A stretch of DNA of 64,000 bases from Lachnospiraceae bacterium (lineage in GTDB: Bacteria; Bacillota; Clostridia; Lachnospirales; Lachnospiraceae), in contig JAFQQI010000048.1 in assembly GCA_017411305.1 (NCBI GenBank), positions 62,001 through 126,000 on the forward strand. The letters are read 5' to 3'. The notes beneath the pieces are model-generated. The model had not been told where the DNA came from. It saw only the letters and a program-made list of their open reading frames with translations, and did no database searches. The position numbers and the translations under genes were made by a program. Position 1 is the stretch's first letter. Each line of letters begins with the position of its first letter. This document shows positions 13,786-45,422 of the stretch, one piece after another.

Positions 13786-15207
13786 CTAATCCTCATAATT
13801 TTCTTCTACCGGCAGGGAGAAAATAAATTCCGTTCCCACGCCTTCTGTACTGATTACGTTAATATGCTCGCCATGGGCATGAATAATTTCCCTGGTAATG
13901 GAAAGCCCAAGGCCGGTTCCTTTTTTGTCTTTTCCACGTGATAAATCCGACTTATAAAAACGATCCCAAATCAGCTTTAGGTCATCTTTGGGGATACCGA
14001 TACCGCTGTCTTTTACCGATACAAAAATCTTGTTATGCTTTTCTGTAGTTTCAATTTTAATGATAGAGTCCTGATGGCTGAACTTAATGGCATTATCAAG
14101 AAGGTTATAAAGCACCTGCTGGATTTTGCCGATGTCTGCAATAACTAACAGTTCGTCGCCTGTCAGAATCAGCTCTATGGCAATGGTTTTGCGGCGGCAA
14201 GTACCTTCAAAGGAAGCTGCCACATTACGAATAACTCTGTTGATATCAAAGCTGGTTTTATCTAAGAGCATTCCCTTGGTATTTAAGTTGTTTAAGGTCA
14301 AAAGACTGTTAGTGAGTTTGGTCAGTCGCTCTGTTTCATTTAGAACGATGTTCAAATATTTCCCATGAAGCTCTTCCGGAATGGTACCGTCAATCATGGC
14401 TTCCAGATAACCCTTAATGGAAGTAAGGGGGGAGCGGAAGTCATGGGAGACATTGGCTACGAATTTCTTTTGGTCATCCTCAGCCCGGGCTATTTCACTG
14501 GCCATATAATTAAGTGAAGCAGCAAGATAACCGATTTCGTCTTCACTTTCTACCTGAAATTCATAATGCATATTACCTGAAGCATATTGTTCTGTGGCTT
14601 CGGTAATCTTGCGAAGAGGCAGGTAAACCATTTCCGTAAAGAAAATCAAAATAATCAAGGACAGCAAAAAGATGATTACCAGCATCAGGTAGGAGATGTT
14701 CAACAGGCTATTGCAGGAGGTTTCTATTACACTCATGGGCAGATGAATGACCACATAACCTCTTACTTTATAGTCGGAGGTGATAGGGGCAAATACGCTG
14801 AGCTGTTCTGCTTCAAAGCTGTTAAAAAAGTTTCCTATCGTATAATGAGAGCTGCCGGTAATGGTTGGGTCAAAGTCTGATATGACAGTTTCGCTCTCTA
14901 AATCAAGGGGGGCATCTGAGCTTAATATCATTCGTCCGGAGGGATTGATAATCCAAAGGGTTGCAGAAAGATAAGCATCCAGAGCATCCAACTGTTTTTT
15001 TACGGTATCAAGAGAAGTTTCATTGTCATACAAATCAGCGGCATAGGTATTGGCAATCAGGGTTGCTTCTTTGTAAAGAGAGTCTGCACGTTCACGCTTT
15101 AAATGCTCCATGGTCATGTTATCTACAAAGGTGGCAACTACAATAAAACCGAAAATGCCGAAGATTAAATAAGCAAGAAGAAACTTCAAATAAAGAGTTT
15201 TCCTCAT
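13786..15207 (-). CDS. Sensor histidine kinase, PhoR/VicK-like
   Basis: Membrane kinase of 473 residues. TM1 spans about 10-28; an extracellular sensor domain about 30-165 follows (IANTYAADLYDNE, WIINPSGRMILSS), then TM2 about 168-190. A HAMP domain (FTEMVYLPLRKITEATEQYASGN) precedes HisKA with FVANVSHDFRSPLTSIKGY (the phospho-acceptor His). HATPase_c has an N box LLDNAIKFSH and G boxes SGIGIPKDD and KGTGLGLSI. It overlaps the regulator stop by one base and follows it in the same leftward transcript. The signal is unknown; the sensor looks like a double-Cache/PAS-type fold of envelope-stress kinases. Confidence 0.93.
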   Translation of the reverse strand: MRKTLYLKFLLAYLIFGIFGFIVVATFVDNMTMEHLKRERADSLYKEATLIANTYAADLYDNETSLDTVKKQLDALDAYLSATLWIINPSGRMILSSDAPLDLESETVISDFDPTITGSSHYTIGNFFNSFEAEQLSVFAPITSDYKVRGYVVIHLPMSVIETSCNSLLNISYLMLVIIFLLSLIILIFFTEMVYLPLRKITEATEQYASGNMHYEFQVESEDEIGYLAASLNYMASEIARAEDDQKKFVANVSHDFRSPLTSIKGYLEAMIDGTIPEELHGKYLNIVLNETERLTKLTNSLLTLNNLNTKGMLLDKTSFDINRVIRNVAASFEGTCRRKTIAIELILTGDELLVIADIGKIQQVLYNLLDNAIKFSHQDSIIKIETTEKHNKIFVSVKDSGIGIPKDDLKLIWDRFYKSDLSRGKDKKGTGLGLSITREIIHAHGEHINVISTEGVGTEFIFSLPVEENYED

Positions 15208-28415: not shown

Positions 28416-29327
28416 ATGAGAATAAAAAAAGAAGGAATGAGCCGGGATAGAAAGAATCCCGAGATGAACAACATAAGTGAAAGCTATTACCAGACGGTAT
28501 TTCGCCGCTTTAAGAAACACAAATTAGCAATGGTTAGTCTGGTTCTTTTGTTGTGCCTTCTGGTGGTTGCAATCTTGGCACCCGTTCTGGCACCTTATCA
28601 CCCGGATGAAATAGTGGGAACCTTTGCAGGAGCGCCTGATAAGGAGCATTTGCTTGGTACGGACCAAATCGGCAGGGATGTGCTTAGCAGGTTGATGTAT
28701 GGGATGAGAATTTCCTTACTGGTAGGAATTATGGCAACACTGATTTCAACTGCAGTGGGTGTGATACTGGGATTGCTTGCCGGTTACTTTGGCGGTGTCA
28801 TCGATATGGTTATCATGCGTTTTACGGATATGGTAATGTCCTTCCCCTACATTTTGTTGGTACTGGTGGCGGCGTCTATTTTTAAGCCCGGTATGTGGAG
28901 TATTATTTTGATTCTGGGATTTGTGGACTGGCCGGGAATTACCAGACTTGTCAGAGGAAATGTACTGAATCTTCGGGAAACAAATTTTGTAAAAAGCAAT
29001 ATTGTGGCGGGAATGCCTACATGGCACACGCTTTTTTCAGAAATCCTGCCTAATACAATAGCACCGATTTTGGTGTATGCAACTTCGGTGCTGGCTATTT
29101 CGATGTTAGATGAAGCGGCGTTGAGTTTCCTCGGCATGGGAGTGCAGCCCCCTACAGCAAGCCTTGGAAATATGTTAAACGGTGCGGAATCCTTAACGGT
29201 ACTGACCAGGCAACCCTGGCTTTGGATACCACCCGGTGTGCTTATCATAGTACTGGTAATGGCAATTAACTTTGTGGGGGATGCGCTAAGGGATGCACTG
29301 GATCCGAAGGCAGGTAAACAGTTATAG
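28416..29327 (+). CDS. ABC transporter permease (OppC/DppC type)
   Basis: 303 residues. An N-terminal cytosolic helix and TM1 (MVSLVLLLCLLVVAILAPVLAPY) precede the typical HLLGTDQIGRDVLSRLMYGMRISLLVG. An EAA loop (NFVKSNIVAGMPTWHTLFSEILPNTIAPILV) and the closing LRDALDPKAG follow. Last gene of the transporter; an in-frame ATG at 28437 is an alternative start. The 3' end overlaps the convergent LytTR regulator by 6 bases, without room for a conventional terminator. Confidence 0.92.
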   Translation: MRIKKEGMSRDRKNPEMNNISESYYQTVFRRFKKHKLAMVSLVLLLCLLVVAILAPVLAPYHPDEIVGTFAGAPDKEHLLGTDQIGRDVLSRLMYGMRISLLVGIMATLISTAVGVILGLLAGYFGGVIDMVIMRFTDMVMSFPYILLVLVAASIFKPGMWSIILILGFVDWPGITRLVRGNVLNLRETNFVKSNIVAGMPTWHTLFSEILPNTIAPILVYATSVLAISMLDEAALSFLGMGVQPPTASLGNMLNGAESLTVLTRQPWLWIPPGVLIIVLVMAINFVGDALRDALDPKAGKQL

Positions 29328-30041
29328 AAGATGATAGTCCTTGGTATCATATTTCATATATGCCAGTTGAAATGCTTTCCATTTTCTTCGGGAGACAGGT
29401 ATTTTTTCGCCGTTTGCAAGGGTAATTACCTGATTGGCAAAGCTTTCCACATAAGCCATGTTAACAAGGTATTTACTGTGGCACCTGAAAAAAGTATTGG
29501 GGGACAAGCGCTGCTCCCACTGCAATAGACTTTCATCGCAGAAATACATGTCATTTTTAGTCCAAAGCTCACTTTTGCCTGACTGCGCTGCAAAGTAGCA
29601 GATGTCGCGAAGCAAGATAGTGTGTGGGATACCGCGTCGCATAATGGAAATGCTTTCACGAAGCTGTAATTCTTCCATGCTGACTGTAAGGTAATTGAAT
29701 AACTCCCGTTCTGTGATAGGCTTTGTCATAAAACGGAAGGCTCTTGCTTCGAACCCTTCTTTATAGCGGTTTTCATAGGCGGTCAGAATAATGAAAATAG
29801 TATGATGGAAATGAACCTTCAATTTCTTCAACCATAAAATGCCGTCCTCTGAGGAATCACAGAATTCCAAATCCATAAATACAACATCAATGGATTCCGT
29901 TTGTAAATACTCCTGCAAAAGGGAGGGCTTTGGGAAATAATACAGTTCATTACTTTCCTGATTTATTGTATTGAATTTTTGTAGTAATTCTTTTAATTCT
30001 TCATAAATAACTTTATGGTCATCGCAAATAGCAATTCTCAT
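29322..30041 (-). CDS. LytTR-family response regulator
   Basis: 239 residues. The receiver domain has acidic pocket CDD (6-8), phospho-acceptor Asp57 (VVFMDLEF) and MTKPI. A C-terminal LytTR DNA-binding domain follows (about 130-235: ISIMRRGIPHTILLRDICYFAAQSGKSELWT, FFRCHSKYLVNMAYVESF, LANGEKIPVSRRKW). It forms a pair with the membrane kinase 23 bases upstream. A target could be the neighbouring peptide transporter or the chemoreceptor, by proximity only. Confidence 0.93.
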   Translation of the reverse strand: MRIAICDDHKVIYEELKELLQKFNTINQESNELYYFPKPSLLQEYLQTESIDVVFMDLEFCDSSEDGILWLKKLKVHFHHTIFIILTAYENRYKEGFEARAFRFMTKPITERELFNYLTVSMEELQLRESISIMRRGIPHTILLRDICYFAAQSGKSELWTKNDMYFCDESLLQWEQRLSPNTFFRCHSKYLVNMAYVESFANQVITLANGEKIPVSRRKWKAFQLAYMKYDTKDYHLL

Positions 30042-30064
30042 TGGTAATTCTCCTTTAGGGATAA

Positions 30065-31264
30065 TTAAATAGGCAGATAAATCGTAATAGTGATCATATT
30101 TTCTTCCAATTTTATTTCATGACGGCCGTCATATTTTTCCAGCACATCTTTCATTTTATGAATGCCATGTCCGTGATTACGGTCTTTTACCCGGCGTTTT
30201 GCCGATAGCTTTTGCCGCGGGATATTGTTTGACATTTCAATGGAAAAGTAATTTTTGCCGCCGGAAAAACGGATGATAATTTCCGGTGTGTCGGTTTCCT
30301 GCTCGCATTGGCCGGCAGAAGCAATGGCATTGGATAACATATTGGAAAATAAGGTACACAAATCCATGTCAGATACTGAGTGTAGTGGCGGCAGGCCTCC
30401 ATGGGTAGTGACCTTAATTTTGTCATTGCAATAATGAGGCAGGTCATGATGCAGGATGGCGTCCACGATATCATTTCCGGACATACTTAAGTGCTGCCCA
30501 AAGGAAAAGGAATGTTCTAAATCCTTAAAATACTTTTGCAATTCATCGGTTTTACCATTGTTAAAAAGCCATTCCATACAAATAAAGTGATTCTTGATGT
30601 CATGACGGAATTTCCGTAGCTCTGTGTCCATCAATTCCATGTCCTGATAATATTCCAACTGTTTTTCCAGCAAAAGTCTGTTTTCTTCGTTACTCTTGGT
30701 TGCCTGTCCCAAAAAACGTTCCGCAAAGAGTTCTATCAGCATGATACACATGGAAATAATAACATACATCAGAATGCGATAAGCAATGATTTCCATTACC
30801 GCACTGTTATTTAGAGGCAAGAACCTTTCGGGATATAACAAATGTGAAATCAACAAAAAGAAAGCATAGGATACAATGTTAAAAGCCAAAAGTTTACTAT
30901 CAAAGAAAAAAGCAATAACGGACAGAAAGATAAAAGTACACTCCCAAACAAAATAAGAGGGAAACAGATAGAGGATGGCATTATACTGGATAAACAGAAT
31001 GATTACGATAAATACCTTGATAAAGTTCAAATGTGCCAAGATGTAGGTCGGTTCCTTTTTATTGCAGCGGATAAAATAAATCCCCACTGAAAGATAAATC
31101 AGGTGACTTAAATCGAATATAATGATTTGCATCCACGATAAGTCCGGATACATACCGAATAGTTTGCAGACAGTCCAGTAGGTTCCAGCACAGATGCACA
31201 GGCCGGGAATGATTAACAAAACATAGATATATACGGATTCCCAATATTTTTTAATGATGTTCAT
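30065..31264 (-). CDS. AgrC-like (GHKL) membrane histidine kinase
   Basis: 399 residues. Residues about 1-185 form a six-helix membrane domain (GMYPDLSWMQIIIFDL, IQYNAILYLFPSYFVWECTFIFLSVIAFFFDSKLLAF) that also appears at the N-terminus of the divergent chemoreceptor. A dimerisation helix with the acceptor His in FRHDIKNHFICMEWL follows. The GHKL ATPase domain has N box LFSNMLSNAIASA and G box NHGHGIHKMKDVLEKYDGRHEI. The family often senses peptides; a peptide ligand would suit the adjacent oligopeptide importer, but that is inference. Confidence 0.92.
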   Translation of the reverse strand: MNIIKKYWESVYIYVLLIIPGLCICAGTYWTVCKLFGMYPDLSWMQIIIFDLSHLIYLSVGIYFIRCNKKEPTYILAHLNFIKVFIVIILFIQYNAILYLFPSYFVWECTFIFLSVIAFFFDSKLLAFNIVSYAFFLLISHLLYPERFLPLNNSAVMEIIAYRILMYVIISMCIMLIELFAERFLGQATKSNEENRLLLEKQLEYYQDMELMDTELRKFRHDIKNHFICMEWLFNNGKTDELQKYFKDLEHSFSFGQHLSMSGNDIVDAILHHDLPHYCNDKIKVTTHGGLPPLHSVSDMDLCTLFSNMLSNAIASAGQCEQETDTPEIIIRFSGGKNYFSIEMSNNIPRQKLSAKRRVKDRNHGHGIHKMKDVLEKYDGRHEIKLEENMITITIYLPI

Positions 31265-40693: not shown

Positions 40694-41488
40694 ATGACTA
40701 TTCAGGAAATGAAAGAAATCAAAAGGCAAAAGGGTTACTCTTATGCACAAATAGCAGAGCTTACCGGGGTGCCTCTTGGTACGGTACAGAAGATTTTCAG
40801 CGGGGAGACGCAGTCGCCGAGATATGACACACTTTTGGCGCTGGAACGTTTTTTTGAAGGGGAGACTTATCCGGGTATGGTGTGTGAACCGGCAACAGTA
40901 TACGGGGCAGAGAAGCAACAGGGTGAATATACCATAGAAGACTATTATGCCCTTCCGGATGAACGTAGGGTAGAGCTGATAGACGGTGTGATTTACGATA
41001 TGCCAGCCCCGTCTTTTAACCATCAGCGTATCGGTGGTGAAATTTATCGGCAGATAGCGAATTATATACATGGAAATAAAGGAAAGTGCATTCCGATGAT
41101 GTCCCCTGTGGATGTGCGTCTTGATTGTGACAATAAGACCATGGTACAGCCGGATGTGCTCATCGTTTGCGACCTTGATAAGGTCAGAAGATGGGGGGTT
41201 ATGGGGGCACCGGATTTTGTGCTGGAGGTGCTTTCCCCTTCTACCAAGCGTAAGGATTGCATTAAGAAGCTGGAGAAGTATCGGGAAGCGGGCGTAAAGG
41301 AATATTGGATGATTGATCCTTATAAGCGTAAGCTGATTATTTACCGGTTTGAGGAAGAAATCTATCCTGATGTCTGTGGACTGGAAGGGAAGGTTCCGGT
41401 AGGTCTGTATGGCAATAATTTACTGATAGATTTGGATATTGTCAGCAGTATAATAATGGATTATGATGAAGAGGAAGAGGATGAATAA
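40694..41488 (+). CDS. XRE-type helix-turn-helix fused to Uma2 (DUF820) nuclease domain
   Basis: 264 residues. Residues 1-55 form a Cro/C1-type HTH (MKEIKRQKGYSYAQIAELTGVPLGTVQKIFSG). Residues about 77-260 are a Uma2-family PD-(D/E)XK nuclease domain: EDYYALPDERRVELIDGVIYDM, VQPDVLIVCD, APDFVLEVLSPSTKRKD, KLEKYREAGVKEYWMIDP. The catalytic D, E and nearby Lys pattern is present. The order suggests a nuclease guided to, or autoregulated at, a DNA site. Strong GGGAGGTG ribosome site at 40679-40686. Overlaps the next gene by a few bases. Confidence 0.87.
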   Translation: MTIQEMKEIKRQKGYSYAQIAELTGVPLGTVQKIFSGETQSPRYDTLLALERFFEGETYPGMVCEPATVYGAEKQQGEYTIEDYYALPDERRVELIDGVIYDMPAPSFNHQRIGGEIYRQIANYIHGNKGKCIPMMSPVDVRLDCDNKTMVQPDVLIVCDLDKVRRWGVMGAPDFVLEVLSPSTKRKDCIKKLEKYREAGVKEYWMIDPYKRKLIIYRFEEEIYPDVCGLEGKVPVGLYGNNLLIDLDIVSSIIMDYDEEEEDE

Positions 41489-42032
41489 AACATTCAAAAA
41501 GATACTACCTGTTTTATTGTTAATATGGCCCTACTTGTGTGTGATTCCTTTTGGAATCGGTTCCGCTAATGAGGACTTTTACGGACCGGTTATGGGAATT
41601 TATATGGTACTTACTGTAGCAGTGTATCTGCTGAATATTATCAGTGCCTGCATGGACAAAGATAAAGCGGCACATAGGCGGCTTGCCTTTTGGGATATGG
41701 TAATGAAGGTGGCACACATTCCCTTTTATCTGGTGGTGTTTGTGTTGGGTGTCCTACTATTATTGACCATAGTAGTGCCGGCAATGGTGTTTGTGACACC
41801 GTTCATGGTAGGAATTCTTATAGTGGTAGATTTGATGCTGATGGTTACCACATCGCTTTATGGAGTGAATGCACTGCTAAAAGGCTGCCGTTTAGGCCTA
41901 TTATCTAAGACTTATACCGTGGTACATATTGTACTGCACTGCTTTTTTGTAACAGATGTAATCAGTGCAGTTATGATATATTTTAAATTATGTAAGGCAG
42001 GAAAAAGAGAAGGAGGAAACTACTATGTTTGA
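41481..42032 (+). CDS. Polytopic membrane protein, unknown
   Basis: 183 residues with about five hydrophobic helices (ILPVLLLIWPYLCVIPFGIG, MGIYMVLTVAVYLLNIISA, VAHIPFYLVVFVLGVLLLLTIV, MVGILIVVDLMLMVTTSLYG, VVHIVLHCFFVTDVISAVM). ATG 41481 follows GAGGAAG; an ATG at 41463 is possible. It overlaps the Uma2 stop and the VOC start, so all three are one transcript. No family recognised. Confidence 0.7.
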   Translation: MNKTFKKILPVLLLIWPYLCVIPFGIGSANEDFYGPVMGIYMVLTVAVYLLNIISACMDKDKAAHRRLAFWDMVMKVAHIPFYLVVFVLGVLLLLTIVVPAMVFVTPFMVGILIVVDLMLMVTTSLYGVNALLKGCRLGLLSKTYTVVHIVLHCFFVTDVISAVMIYFKLCKAGKREGGNYYV

Positions 42033-42492
42033 AAAATTATTTGATGGTGCAAAGTTTGCACAGGTGGGTTATGTGGTAAACGACATTGAAGATGCCAAGG
42101 CAAAATATGCGGCGGCTTTGGGGTGCGAAAATCCTCCGATTTGTACTGGCGGAGCATATGAAGTGACACAGACTAAGGTGTTTGGTAAGCCGGCACCGGA
42201 TGCGGATTGCAAGATGGCTTTCTTCAATCTTGAAAGCGGGATTCAGTTAGAGCTCATTGAGCCCAATGATGCTCCTTCCGTATGGAGAGACCATTTGGAT
42301 AAATACGGAGAAGGAATCCATCATATTGCGTTTACTGTAGAGGATACCGAAGAAACTGTTGCAAAATGCCTGAAATTGGGAATGACTGTTGAACAGGAAG
42401 GTAACTACGGTGATAACAGCGGAAGATATGTGTACCTGGATGCATTTGATTTGTTAAAATGCAGAGTGGAGCTGCTGCAGAATTTTAAATAA
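42025..42492 (+). CDS. VOC-superfamily (glyoxalase-fold) protein
   Basis: 155 residues. One VOC module pair: AQVGYVVNDIEDAKAKYAAALG, MAFFNLESGIQLELIEPND and GIHHIAFTVEDTEETVAKCLKLGM, with metal-type residues (the His of HHIAF, the Glu of LELIE and RVELL). The pattern is close to lactoylglutathione lyase or methylmalonyl-CoA epimerase, but the substrate is not decided. Strong AAGGAGGAAA site. Ends at a hairpin at 42505. Confidence 0.85.
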   Translation: MFEKLFDGAKFAQVGYVVNDIEDAKAKYAAALGCENPPICTGGAYEVTQTKVFGKPAPDADCKMAFFNLESGIQLELIEPNDAPSVWRDHLDKYGEGIHHIAFTVEDTEETVAKCLKLGMTVEQEGNYGDNSGRYVYLDAFDLLKCRVELLQNFK

Positions 42493-42504
42493 CTTAGAAG
42501 AAAC

Positions 42505-42537
42505 AGACACGATAGCGAGTGATGTCCTATCGTGTCT
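42505..42537 (+). terminator. Hairpin after the VOC gene
   Basis: AGACACGATAG (42505-42515) pairs perfectly with CTATCGTGTCT (42527-42537). The tail TGTGTTTATATT is only moderately T-rich, so it is a probable terminator. Confidence 0.7.
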
Positions 42538-42556
42538 TGTGTTTATATTATGATTT

Positions 42557-42616
42557 AATGACAAAAAGATGCAGATGAATGACAATTTGGAAAATATCTA
42601 TTTTTAATAGTATAAT
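42557..42616 (+). promoter_or_regulatory. LytTR-like direct repeats and promoter of the fused regulator-kinase
   Basis: AATGACAA occurs at 42557-42564 and 42578-42585, a 21-base period (two helical turns) as in AgrA-type LytTR sites. The repeats extend as AATGACAAAAAG and AATGACAATTTG. A -35-like TTGGAA (42587-42592) follows directly, and TATAAT is at 42611-42616 (18-base spacer). Binding by the gene's own LytTR domain is inferred. Confidence 0.6.
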
Positions 42617-42647
42617 GAGCGTGACTAATAATAGGACGTGAGTGAAT

Positions 42648-44000
42648 ATGATAAGAATTGCACTGATAGATGATAATAAAGAATTTCTTGAATTGACATT
42701 TCATTTGTTACAGGAATGTTTTTTCCAAAGTGGGAGAAAGTGTGAGATAGAAAGATTTAATGACCCTGTTTCACTATTGTATGAAATAGACGATAGGGAT
42801 TTTTTTGATATCTGCTTTTTGGATATCGAGATGCCGAAAATGAATGGAATTGAGCTTGCCAAAAGAATACGGGAGAAGAGAAGAAGGACAATTATTGTTT
42901 TTTTGACTGCACATCCGGAATTTATCAGAACAGGATATGAGGTAAAAGCGTTTGACTATCTGTTTAAAGAGAGGATTGATAAAGAATTGTCTAATCTGAT
43001 GGGACGCATTTTGTCAGAGGTGGATGAACGGAAAAAGCGTATCTATATGATAGAAACGAATTCGCGGATTGAGAAAATATATTATGAAGAAATTATCTAT
43101 GTATATAAAAGCGGACAATATGCCAGATTTGTTTTGAAGGATAAAGAATTGCAGGACAGAAAGGCACTGAAGGAAGTGCTGGAAAAGTTGCATTCCAAAG
43201 AGTTTATAGCGGTCGAGAGAGGGTTTATTGTCAACATTGAACATATCAAAAAAATAGATTCCCGTGATGTGGAAATGGAAGACGGAACAGTTATCCGAGT
43301 CAGCCGTGAACGGATAGGAGAATTAAAACAGCGTATGCAAGAGCATTGGCTGGAACGTTTGAGAGAGAAACAATTAGCCGAAGAGAAGAATGAGTTTCTG
43401 GAGCAGGATTATCAGAGGATTATGGCGTGGAGCAGAGAAAAAAGCAGGATTTTGCATGATATCCGAAATCACTTTTTGGTGCTGGAGGGGCTTTTGAAGC
43501 ATAAGCAGACAGATCGGGCGATTGCTTATATTCAAGAAATCAGAGAATCAGAGCTGGAAGCAGACCATTATATCCAGACAGATAATGTTGTAGTAAATGC
43601 GCTTTTGAGCGAAAAAATTAGTCTTGCCAAGAAGTACAATATTAAGGTAGAGTTATCTGTCAGCAATTTGCAAGACTCGTTTGTTTCGGATAGAGATTGG
43701 TGTGTAATTCTTGCCAATTTGTTTGATAATGCCATAGAGGCAGCAAGCCGGGTAATGGTAAATCGGGAGATTATTATTAAAATCCAGGAAGTGGCTTATG
43801 GAATGATATTGACCATGCGAAACAGTTTTGCGGGTGAAGTGATTGACGTGGGAGGAAATCTGATAACAACCAAAGAAGATAAAGAAGAACATGGGATTGG
43901 CTTTCAAAATGTAACCTATGCTGTCAGTAAATATAACGGTATTATACAACGAAGATGCTTTCAAAACATTTTTCAGGTAAGCGTTGTGTTGTACCGATAA
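42648..44000 (+). CDS. Receiver-LytTR-histidine kinase fusion (single-chain two-component protein)
   Basis: About 450 residues, no membrane helix. Residues 1-120 are a receiver with DD at 8-9, phospho-acceptor Asp59 (FLDIEMPKMNGIELAKRIRE) and a Lys-Glu (YLFKE) where Lys-Pro is usual. Residues about 128-225 are a LytTR DNA-binding domain (YEEIIYVYKSGQYARFVL, FIAVERGFIVNIEHIKKI, MEDGTVIRVSRERI). A coiled helix leads to a GHKL/AgrC-type kinase: His270 in ILHDIRNHFLVLEGLL, N box LANLFDNAIEAA, G box EEHGIGFQNVTYAVSKYNG. All parts look intact. ATG 42648 or GTG 42642. The MATE gene follows. Confidence 0.9.
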   Translation: MIRIALIDDNKEFLELTFHLLQECFFQSGRKCEIERFNDPVSLLYEIDDRDFFDICFLDIEMPKMNGIELAKRIREKRRRTIIVFLTAHPEFIRTGYEVKAFDYLFKERIDKELSNLMGRILSEVDERKKRIYMIETNSRIEKIYYEEIIYVYKSGQYARFVLKDKELQDRKALKEVLEKLHSKEFIAVERGFIVNIEHIKKIDSRDVEMEDGTVIRVSRERIGELKQRMQEHWLERLREKQLAEEKNEFLEQDYQRIMAWSREKSRILHDIRNHFLVLEGLLKHKQTDRAIAYIQEIRESELEADHYIQTDNVVVNALLSEKISLAKKYNIKVELSVSNLQDSFVSDRDWCVILANLFDNAIEAASRVMVNREIIIKIQEVAYGMILTMRNSFAGEVIDVGGNLITTKEDKEEHGIGFQNVTYAVSKYNGIIQRRCFQNIFQVSVVLYR

Positions 44001-44096
44001 AGGCTTCATAACCGATATTTAATGATAGACAGTAATAATAAATATTAAGTAGATATAAGTAATGATTAGCAAACTACAAGGAAGGAATAGAAACAA

Positions 44097-45422
44097 ATGA
44101 AAGATTTATCCAAGGGAAATCCCTTAAAGGTAATATTACAATTTGCATTACCGCTTTATATCGGACAATTGTTTCAGCTTTGTTACGGCGTAATTGATAC
44201 CAGAGTGGTTGGTAGTGTGCTGGGAGAAACTGCTCTTGCGGCTGTGGGTGCCACTACGGCATTAAGTGACCTTTTAATAGAATTTTTAAATGGTATAATT
44301 TGCGGTTTCGGTATTGTGATTGCAACTTATTTCGGTGCTAAAGAAGAAAAGCAGATGAAGAAAGCCATTGGTGGGACTATTGTAATAGGTGTCTTGTTTA
44401 CAACAATTATCAGTGTGGGATGCTTACTGTTTTTGCCGCAAATTCTGGGAATTCTGAATGTTGCGCCGGAGCTGACACAAGATGCCACAGCATACATACA
44501 GACGATTATTGCCGGATTGGTAATTACTGCATTGTATAACATAGGTGCGGTTGTTCTTAGGTCAATCGGGGATTCCTTTACGCCTCTTATTTTCCTAGTG
44601 ATATCTAATGTGTTGAATGTAGTTTTGGATTATTCGTTTGTCATGTATGCCGGAATGGGAACGAGAGGTGCAGCCCTTGCTACAGTGTTATCACAGGCGG
44701 TTTCCGCACTACTTTGTTTCATTGTTATCTGCAAAAAGTATCCTTCCTTGAAACTTAAGAAAGAAGATATACAGCCGCAGGGTGAAATGTACAAGCAGTT
44801 AATTCCCAAAGGACTGTCTATGGGCTTTATGCTGTCCTTTGTTATGCTGGGGTCGCTTGCGCTACAGACAAGTATCAATACTTTTGGAACCAATACCATC
44901 GTAGCTCATACTGCTGCGAGAAAAATTACCATTATCTTCTTAACACCGTTTTTTGTATTGGGAACGGCACTGGCGACCTACTGCGGTCAGAATCTCGGAG
45001 CAAAGGAATATGAGCGGATTAAGCAGGGGATGAAAAGCAGTGTGCTAATATCCTTTGCATGGTGTATCGTTGTAGTATTATTGATTTTTGCCTTTGCCTC
45101 TATATTTATCCGCTTTGTTACGGGAAGCAGTGAAGAGGAAATTGTCCGGACAGCAACCATGTATTTGCGGATAAATGCGAGCCTGTATTTTCTGCCGGCC
45201 ATGATTTGTATCTTTCGAAACAGTATGCAGGGCTTTGGCGATACTAAAACACCGCTGGTATCCAGTTTTATTGAATTGGCAGGAAAGGTGCTGATAGCAT
45301 GGTTTTTAACTCCTGTTATCGGATATTGGGGGATTATTGTATCAGAGCCCATTGTTTGGGCCGTTATGATTATTCCGCTATTTATCGGATTGTATAAAGG
45401 GAATTGGTTTATGAAAGGATAA
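44097..45422 (+). CDS. MATE-family multidrug/metabolite exporter
   Basis: 441 residues, about 12 helices in two homologous bundles. Marks: MKDLSKGNPLKVILQFALPLYIGQLFQ at the start, YGVIDTRVVGSVLGETALAAVGAT, GFGIVIATYFGAKEEKQM, AGMGTRGAALATVLSQAVSALL, GTALATYCGQNLGAKEYERIKQG and FRNSMQGFGDTKTPLVSSF. It pumps cationic compounds or metabolites against Na+ or H+. Ribosome site AAGGAAGG. Its place 96 bases after the receiver-LytTR-kinase gene makes it a candidate target of that regulator. Confidence 0.93.
   Translation: MKDLSKGNPLKVILQFALPLYIGQLFQLCYGVIDTRVVGSVLGETALAAVGATTALSDLLIEFLNGIICGFGIVIATYFGAKEEKQMKKAIGGTIVIGVLFTTIISVGCLLFLPQILGILNVAPELTQDATAYIQTIIAGLVITALYNIGAVVLRSIGDSFTPLIFLVISNVLNVVLDYSFVMYAGMGTRGAALATVLSQAVSALLCFIVICKKYPSLKLKKEDIQPQGEMYKQLIPKGLSMGFMLSFVMLGSLALQTSINTFGTNTIVAHTAARKITIIFLTPFFVLGTALATYCGQNLGAKEYERIKQGMKSSVLISFAWCIVVVLLIFAFASIFIRFVTGSSEEEIVRTATMYLRINASLYFLPAMICIFRNSMQGFGDTKTPLVSSFIELAGKVLIAWFLTPVIGYWGIIVSEPIVWAVMIIPLFIGLYKGNWFMKG

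Follow-up and report, generated by a model that had tools for sequence, protein, structure and literature searches.

The fused gene and its neighbors

The window, a stretch of 64,000 nucleotides from a contig of a Lachnospiraceae bacterium, carries one gene in which a receiver, a LytTR domain, and a GHKL kinase are joined, followed by a gene for a MATE family efflux transporter. The features of the locus, in window positions, are as follows.

42505..42537, no strand assigned: inverted repeat with 11-bp arms and an 11-nt loop, T-rich sequence after it
42557..42564, +: distal repeat AATGACAA, with a GACAA core
42578..42585, +: proximal repeat AATGACAA, 21 bases further, just 5' of the -35 position
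42587..42592, +: -35-like TTGGAA, weak
42611..42616, +: -10-like TATAAT, 25 nt past the proximal GACAA
42642..44000, +: fused REC-LytTR-GHKL protein, 452 aa from GTG 42642 or 450 aa from ATG 42648
42657..42989, +: receiver domain (Response_reg), residues 6-116, with Asp61; over the Pfam cutoff
43065..43337, +: LytTR DNA-binding domain, residues 142-232; over the Pfam cutoff
43350..43376, +: fusion junction, where relatives carry 11-14 extra codons (a stop, an ATG, and 9-12 others)
43449..43544, +: His-bearing helix region, SPOB_a-like, residues 270-301; below the Pfam cutoff
43455-43457, +: codon of His272, within the SPOB_a-like helix region
43689..43991, +: HATPase_c_5 (GHKL) kinase domain, residues 350-450; over the Pfam cutoff
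44097..45422, +: MATE family efflux transporter, 441 aa; TIGR00797 and MatE over the cutoff

The N-terminal part has the composition of a LytTR regulator, Response_reg and then LytTR, both above the gathering score, and the C-terminal part has that of an AgrC-type kinase, HATPase_c_5 with the His residue and the N and G boxes. The Pfam order agrees with that of the initial annotation, which had read receiver, LytTR domain, and GHKL kinase in a single frame. A motif search found the receiver DD, T, and K residues and the kinase His, N box, and G box all present, and their roles in the fused protein are presumably those known from the families. The acceptor Asp is residue 61 and the kinase His residue 272 when counted from the GTG; Asp59 and His270, as first annotated, are correct when counted from the ATG. 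The protein had also been described as soluble and devoid of a membrane sensor, and hydropathy windows find no transmembrane (TM) helices in it; the polytopic N-terminal membrane sensor of AgrC-type kinases is absent, by hydropathy, from the fused protein and from the four unfused kinases described below.

The MATE open reading frame (ORF) begins 96 bases past the stop of the fused gene, the spacing already reported for it, and a scan for terminator-like sites with loops of up to 8 found none on the + strand in 42400-44200; the two genes are possibly cotranscribed. The inverted repeat at 42505..42537, whose loop exceeds the limit of that scan and which is not on its list, is a possible terminator of the upstream gene 42025-42492. 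Elsewhere in the window, 29322-31264 on the - strand holds a LytTR regulator and a GHKL kinase with six TM helices, the kinase gene coming first, and a further GHKL match lies at 13843-14124. The product of 40694-41488, 264 aa long, combines a helix-turn-helix with a domain resembling Uma2 endonucleases.

Relatives and origin of the fusion

Relatives were sought in 60 genomes, the bacterium's own and 59 others. Among the matches listed, the best are G031:C21, G027:C31, and G032:C23 (54-55% identity) and G032:C4 (49%, in a stretch that holds many N). These four closest relatives, 49-55% identical, come from three genomes of the genus, and each match contains one stop, which is the end of a regulator gene, with the ATG of a short kinase gene directly after it. 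All four loci consist of a LytTR regulator, a GHKL kinase of 222-225 aa, and, 9-10 bp on, a MATE ORF (MatE was confirmed by Pfam for L119 only, and the ORF of L121 is shorter, 292 aa). The tie to the MATE gene is thus stronger than the initial annotation had proposed, the ORF following the pair in 4/4 close relatives. OrfB/IS605-type transposase genes lie directly 3' of the MATE gene in two of these loci (L119:7784-8722 and L122:2940-3857). The unfused kinases have no TM helices by hydropathy, and the kinase was therefore soluble before the fusion.

Aligned with the relatives, the junction is a single in-frame gap at which the window lacks 42 bases (33 against L120), comprising the regulator stop, the kinase start, and the first kinase codons. 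The sequence around it is diverged yet continuous and contains no N. A frameshift had been named at the outset as something that might have produced the long frame; the gap of 42 or 33 bases is a multiple of three and lies inside a 192-kb contig, and the joined frame is therefore not a frameshift. Both halves align throughout with the separate proteins and keep their motifs, and in kinase trees the window clusters with the unfused kinases on starred branches with support of 98 (three rows) and 99 (four rows). Judged from these alignments, the fused gene is the relatives' neighboring regulator and kinase genes joined into one. REC-LytTR-GHKL as an established architecture is not supported, regulator and kinase being separate genes in the closest relatives. 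Because separate pairs are many and fusions few, we infer that the event was a fusion rather than a splitting.

Frequency of the fused frame

Full-span matches were defined as running from residue 35 or less through residue 434 or more. Among the matches listed there are 25, of which 23 have one or two internal stops and only two are unbroken, namely, the window gene and G030:C7 (L128). Since 23 of the 25 carry an internal stop, the window gene appears to be a young fusion in a pump operon. Among 138 loci and the window, single frames spanning both halves were the window gene (copies L003 and L089) and the following two.

L128:5120-6436 (G030:C7; = L109): second soluble REC-LytTR-GHKL frame, 438 aa
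L137:8282-10126 (G010:C37): fused frame of 614 aa with a receiver, a partial LytTR domain, five TM helices, and a GHKL kinase

L128 carries Response_reg, LytTR, and HATPase_c_5 by Pfam, as the window protein does. The initial annotation had allowed that no other genome might hold a homolog with the same order; this one is listed, at 25% identity and an E value of 4.3e-28. It contains N letters, its branch in the kinase tree is very long, and it is likely an independent fusion. No ABC or MATE ORF was found within 2.5 kb of it, and the two larger ORFs downstream encode a VWA protein and a protein without a family. L137, in which LytTR matches only profile positions 2-62 of 98, looks like a deletion that joined a regulator to a membrane kinase; with a partial LytTR ahead of a membrane kinase, it was rejected as an example of the window's type.

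In the phylum, a search covering 398 genomes at an E value of 1e-27 listed no further full-span match; that limit, like the limit of 1e-30, would hide fusions as distant as L128 or more. Four candidates per genome were scored in sets of about 400 genomes, the genome contig scan took the best 80 of 329 relatives, and the true number of fusions may be higher than that among the matches listed. Plasmid and phage collections gave no close match, their 38 and 62 records all lying under 60% identity. Two of the 62 phage records were examined. MT837636.1 (L254), an 8-kb human fecal record filed as a bacteriophage, has a LytTR-GHKL pair with a headless kinase (as defined below) and two ABC genes and could represent either bacterial DNA or a mobile element; MT836762.1 is arranged otherwise, with a 451-aa kinase among regulator genes.

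Promoter of the operon

The -35/-10 pair of the fused gene, TTGGAA-18-TATAAT, ends at 42616. The repeat with a 21-base period that had been noted beside it is present as described, with AATGACAA at 42557 and 42578. The exact 8+8 repeat at this spacing occurs once in the window, and with up to three mismatches there are four such repeats, against a mean of 1.58 in shuffled sequence; because 9 of 100 shuffles also reach four, the repeat alone is weak evidence. When the promoters of the window and of its four relatives were aligned, TGACAAAAA was invariant, as were the second GACA and TATA-N-T, and the proximal repeat GACA[AG] stood at equal spacing in 5/5 promoters. The -10 of the relatives is TATACT, 26 nt from the proximal repeat. 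The five promoters thus have in common two GACA repeats with a period of 21 beside the -35, which bears out, for the window and its relatives, the earlier claim of LytTR-like repeats ahead of the gene; three of the relatives (L119, L121, and L122) are near-copies, so that the independent witnesses are few, effectively three distinct promoters. In L119, L120, L121, and L122, the -10-like TATACT stands just 6-7 nt before the regulator ATG, and the transcript may therefore be leaderless; the leader in the window is longer.

The pattern GACAR-N16-GACAR-N25..27-TATAMT matched once each in G000, G031, and G027, twice in G032, which carries the operon in two copies, and not at all in G030. All five matches in the five genomes searched precede the regulator-kinase-MATE operon; reversed as a control, the pattern matched once. 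The pattern was drawn up from the very promoters that it matched and therefore shows confinement to the operon rather than an independent discovery.

Structure model and proposed mechanism

An AF2 model built on an alignment of 43 rows has a mean pLDDT of 86.3 and a pTM of 0.53. In it, a continuous helix (residues 222-286) extends the end of LytTR into the His272 helix, with the fusion junction within it; this linker is less confident, with block means of 76, 66, 58, and 70 at residues 241-280. The model suggests that the DNA-binding and kinase domains are directly coupled. Foldseek ranked full-length ComE (4cbv) best, then LvrB, and then AgrC chimeras (6e95/6e52).

The route of the fusion, the common operon, the common promoter layout, and the intact motifs are plain from the compared sequences. 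The gene probably encodes a one-chain, soluble two-component system that arose by an in-frame deletion and switches on its own pump operon. An adjacent LytTR regulator gene and a headless AgrC-type GHKL kinase gene, already in a MATE operon, were joined by the small deletion, and the fused protein would dimerize through the kinase helix. His272 would be autophosphorylated and the phosphate would move to Asp61 inside the dimer, after which the LytTR domains would occupy both GACA repeats next to the weak -35. Binding would raise transcription of the operon itself and hence of the MATE pump. That the protein regulates its own operon, and the pump with it, is likely; phosphotransfer within the dimer, a cytosolic ligand, and activation rather than repression are steps that we infer. 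Lacking any membrane part, the fused protein would be expected to sense a cytosolic cue, of which a pump substrate is the simplest candidate, or the pump itself. Two LytTR domains on a two-fold coiled coil would not obviously fit direct repeats.

The same protein could instead be a REC-controlled kinase, in which the receiver, phosphorylated in trans or by another kinase, gates, as in LvrB, a kinase that serves another regulator, LytTR being secondary. A receiver ahead of a kinase in one chain is a recognized arrangement, Foldseek places LvrB structures among its top matches, and the genome has 12 LytTR matches, the window's included, so that regulators that could be partners exist. However, in the unfused relatives regulator and kinase are adjacent genes, and across the five genomes searched the promoter layout is confined to the operon; the kinase would therefore most simply pair with its own receiver. 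The LytTR domain, moreover, is over the Pfam cutoff and aligned throughout, and we consider such a kinase unlikely.

It is fairly unlikely that the fusion is functionally neutral, the protein acting like the separate pair, perhaps together with free kinase, and gaining no new mechanism from the joined chain. The kept motifs and full alignment of both halves with separate proteins are what such a fusion would leave, and there are two internal candidate starts, TTG 43359 and, 14 nt past an AGGAG, the in-frame ATG 43335, which could give a separate kinase. However, 14 nt is a long Shine-Dalgarno spacing, and the fixed 1:1 stoichiometry and the loss of free regulator would likely matter. An assembly or sequencing artifact joining two genes appears very unlikely: the fusion is known from one draft assembly alone (123 contigs, 82.57% complete), and no second copy of the junction turned up in viral contigs (0 exact matches), where hardly any was expected, but a single base error cannot yield an in-frame gap of 42 or 33 bases at a continuous, diverged junction inside so long a contig. 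The preferred reading is that of a one-chain system acting on its own operon.

Headless kinases and transporter genes

Regulator-kinase pairs were compared together with several kb of flanking sequence, or less where a contig ended, kinases without an adjacent regulator and repeated sequences being left out of the pair counts. Kinases were called headless when fewer than 110 residues, with at most one TM helix, preceded the kinase match; 44 were headless, 34 had a membrane part, and three were fused frames. ABC-ATPase ORFs were taken by phmmer at an E value of 1e-10, which does not tell importers from exporters. With that reading, an ABC-ATPase or MATE ORF lies within 2.5 kb on either side of 43/44 headless but 14/34 membrane pairs, within 2.5 kb downstream of 39/44 versus 11/34, and within 500 bp downstream on the same strand in 35/44 versus 9/34, some contigs ending soon downstream (468 bases are left for L225 and 478 for L238). 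Such an ORF lies within 2.5 kb of every one of the 32 headless kinases that lack any TM helix ahead of the kinase match, and the single headless miss, L219, has one N-terminal TM helix. Pfam found ABC_tran in 7 of 10 neighboring ORFs tested; of the other three, two lie beside L128 and one encodes a homoserine dehydrogenase.

Fisher tests, for which the headless set included the window, the other set included L137, and L128 was excluded, gave 44/45 versus 14/35 at 2.5 kb (P = 3.9e-9) and 36/45 versus 9/35 at 500 bp (P = 1.3e-6), with rows that are kin. An ancestry-aware sign test of the exporter link had three independent pairs on starred branches (median P = 0.5), and for a gene within 500 bp downstream the median P was 1, with some pairs opposite in direction; the link lacks significance because shared ancestry leaves too few independent cases. 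The kinase trees, in which gains and losses of the membrane part are not distinguished, need nine headless/membrane changes in one case and six in the other, of which starred branches force five and four, with the fused rows or the exporter-less row outside the labels. The window clade is nearest to the membrane kinases L095 and L096, with moderate support (85), and their loci (L226 and L227) also have ABC genes downstream. Regulator and kinase share a frame in 32/44 headless and 3/34 membrane pairs, which is weak evidence for readiness to fuse because many headless loci were chosen through same-frame matches. Headless LytTR-GHKL pairs are possibly, and for now tentatively, recurrent cytosol-sensing efflux switches that lost their sensor repeatedly beside transporters (paired ABC, ABC-2 type, and MATE), the loss then enabling fusion.

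Strong 21-base repeats (at least 8/9 matches) were found in 0/44 headless pairs, 4/33 membrane pairs, and one of three fused frames, the window's; the repeats of the four relatives agree in the GACA core only, and all are below 8/9. Such repeats were accordingly rejected as a mark of headless promoters. In the four membrane pairs, the near-exact 9-base repeat lies upstream of the regulator, with 21 the commonest among periods 14-32, and may represent LytTR sites.

Comparison with known systems and implications

AgrA/ComE regulators with AgrC kinases resemble the window protein in their REC and LytTR domains, in HATPase_c_5, and in fold (4cbv and 6e95/6e52), and AgrA/ComE sites are direct repeats with a 21-bp period near the -35. 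In contrast to them, the window protein is one chain without a membrane peptide sensor, in a pump operon rather than with peptide genes, and we take the GACAA core of its repeats to differ from the AgrA consensus. Bacteroides hybrid two-component systems (HTCS) have the sensor kinase first and an AraC-type output, whereas the window protein is soluble, with the regulator first and a LytTR output, and lacks the HTCS membrane sensor. LvrB of Leptospira also holds a receiver and a kinase in a single chain, the receiver first, but is not known to have a DNA-binding domain, whereas the window protein carries LytTR. Hybrid histidine kinases have the receiver C-terminal to the kinase; in the window protein it is N-terminal.

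HTCS are described as a kinase and a DNA-binding regulator in one polypeptide with a membrane sensor kinase (PMC11253607), and a 2026 paper presents LvrB as a prototype of Rec-controlled kinases (PMC13269768). Hybrid histidine kinases and two-component gene fusions were treated by Cock and Whitworth in 2007, as cited in PMC3018481 and PMC8895600; there, too, neighboring kinase and regulator genes are joined. According to PMC3018481, which cites them, a TM sensor or a DNA-binding output determines whether both domains are found in one protein or in two. The window gene fits this rule: in contrast to those fusions, its kinase had already lost the TM part, and a DNA-binding regulator could therefore be joined to it. 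Titles and abstract openings, mostly outside subscription journals, yielded no work describing the REC-LytTR-GHKL order and no description of exporter-linked headless LytTR kinases.

In one genus, the fused gene and its unfused counterparts share the pump and have promoters of corresponding layout. Since the counterparts are still present, the effect on signaling of joining kinase and regulator is testable in one matched set, and so is a second question, whether it is the absence of a membrane sensor that allows DNA-binding regulators to fuse. Should a wider sample bear out the exporter link, it would define a class of efflux switches that respond to a signal in the cytosol.
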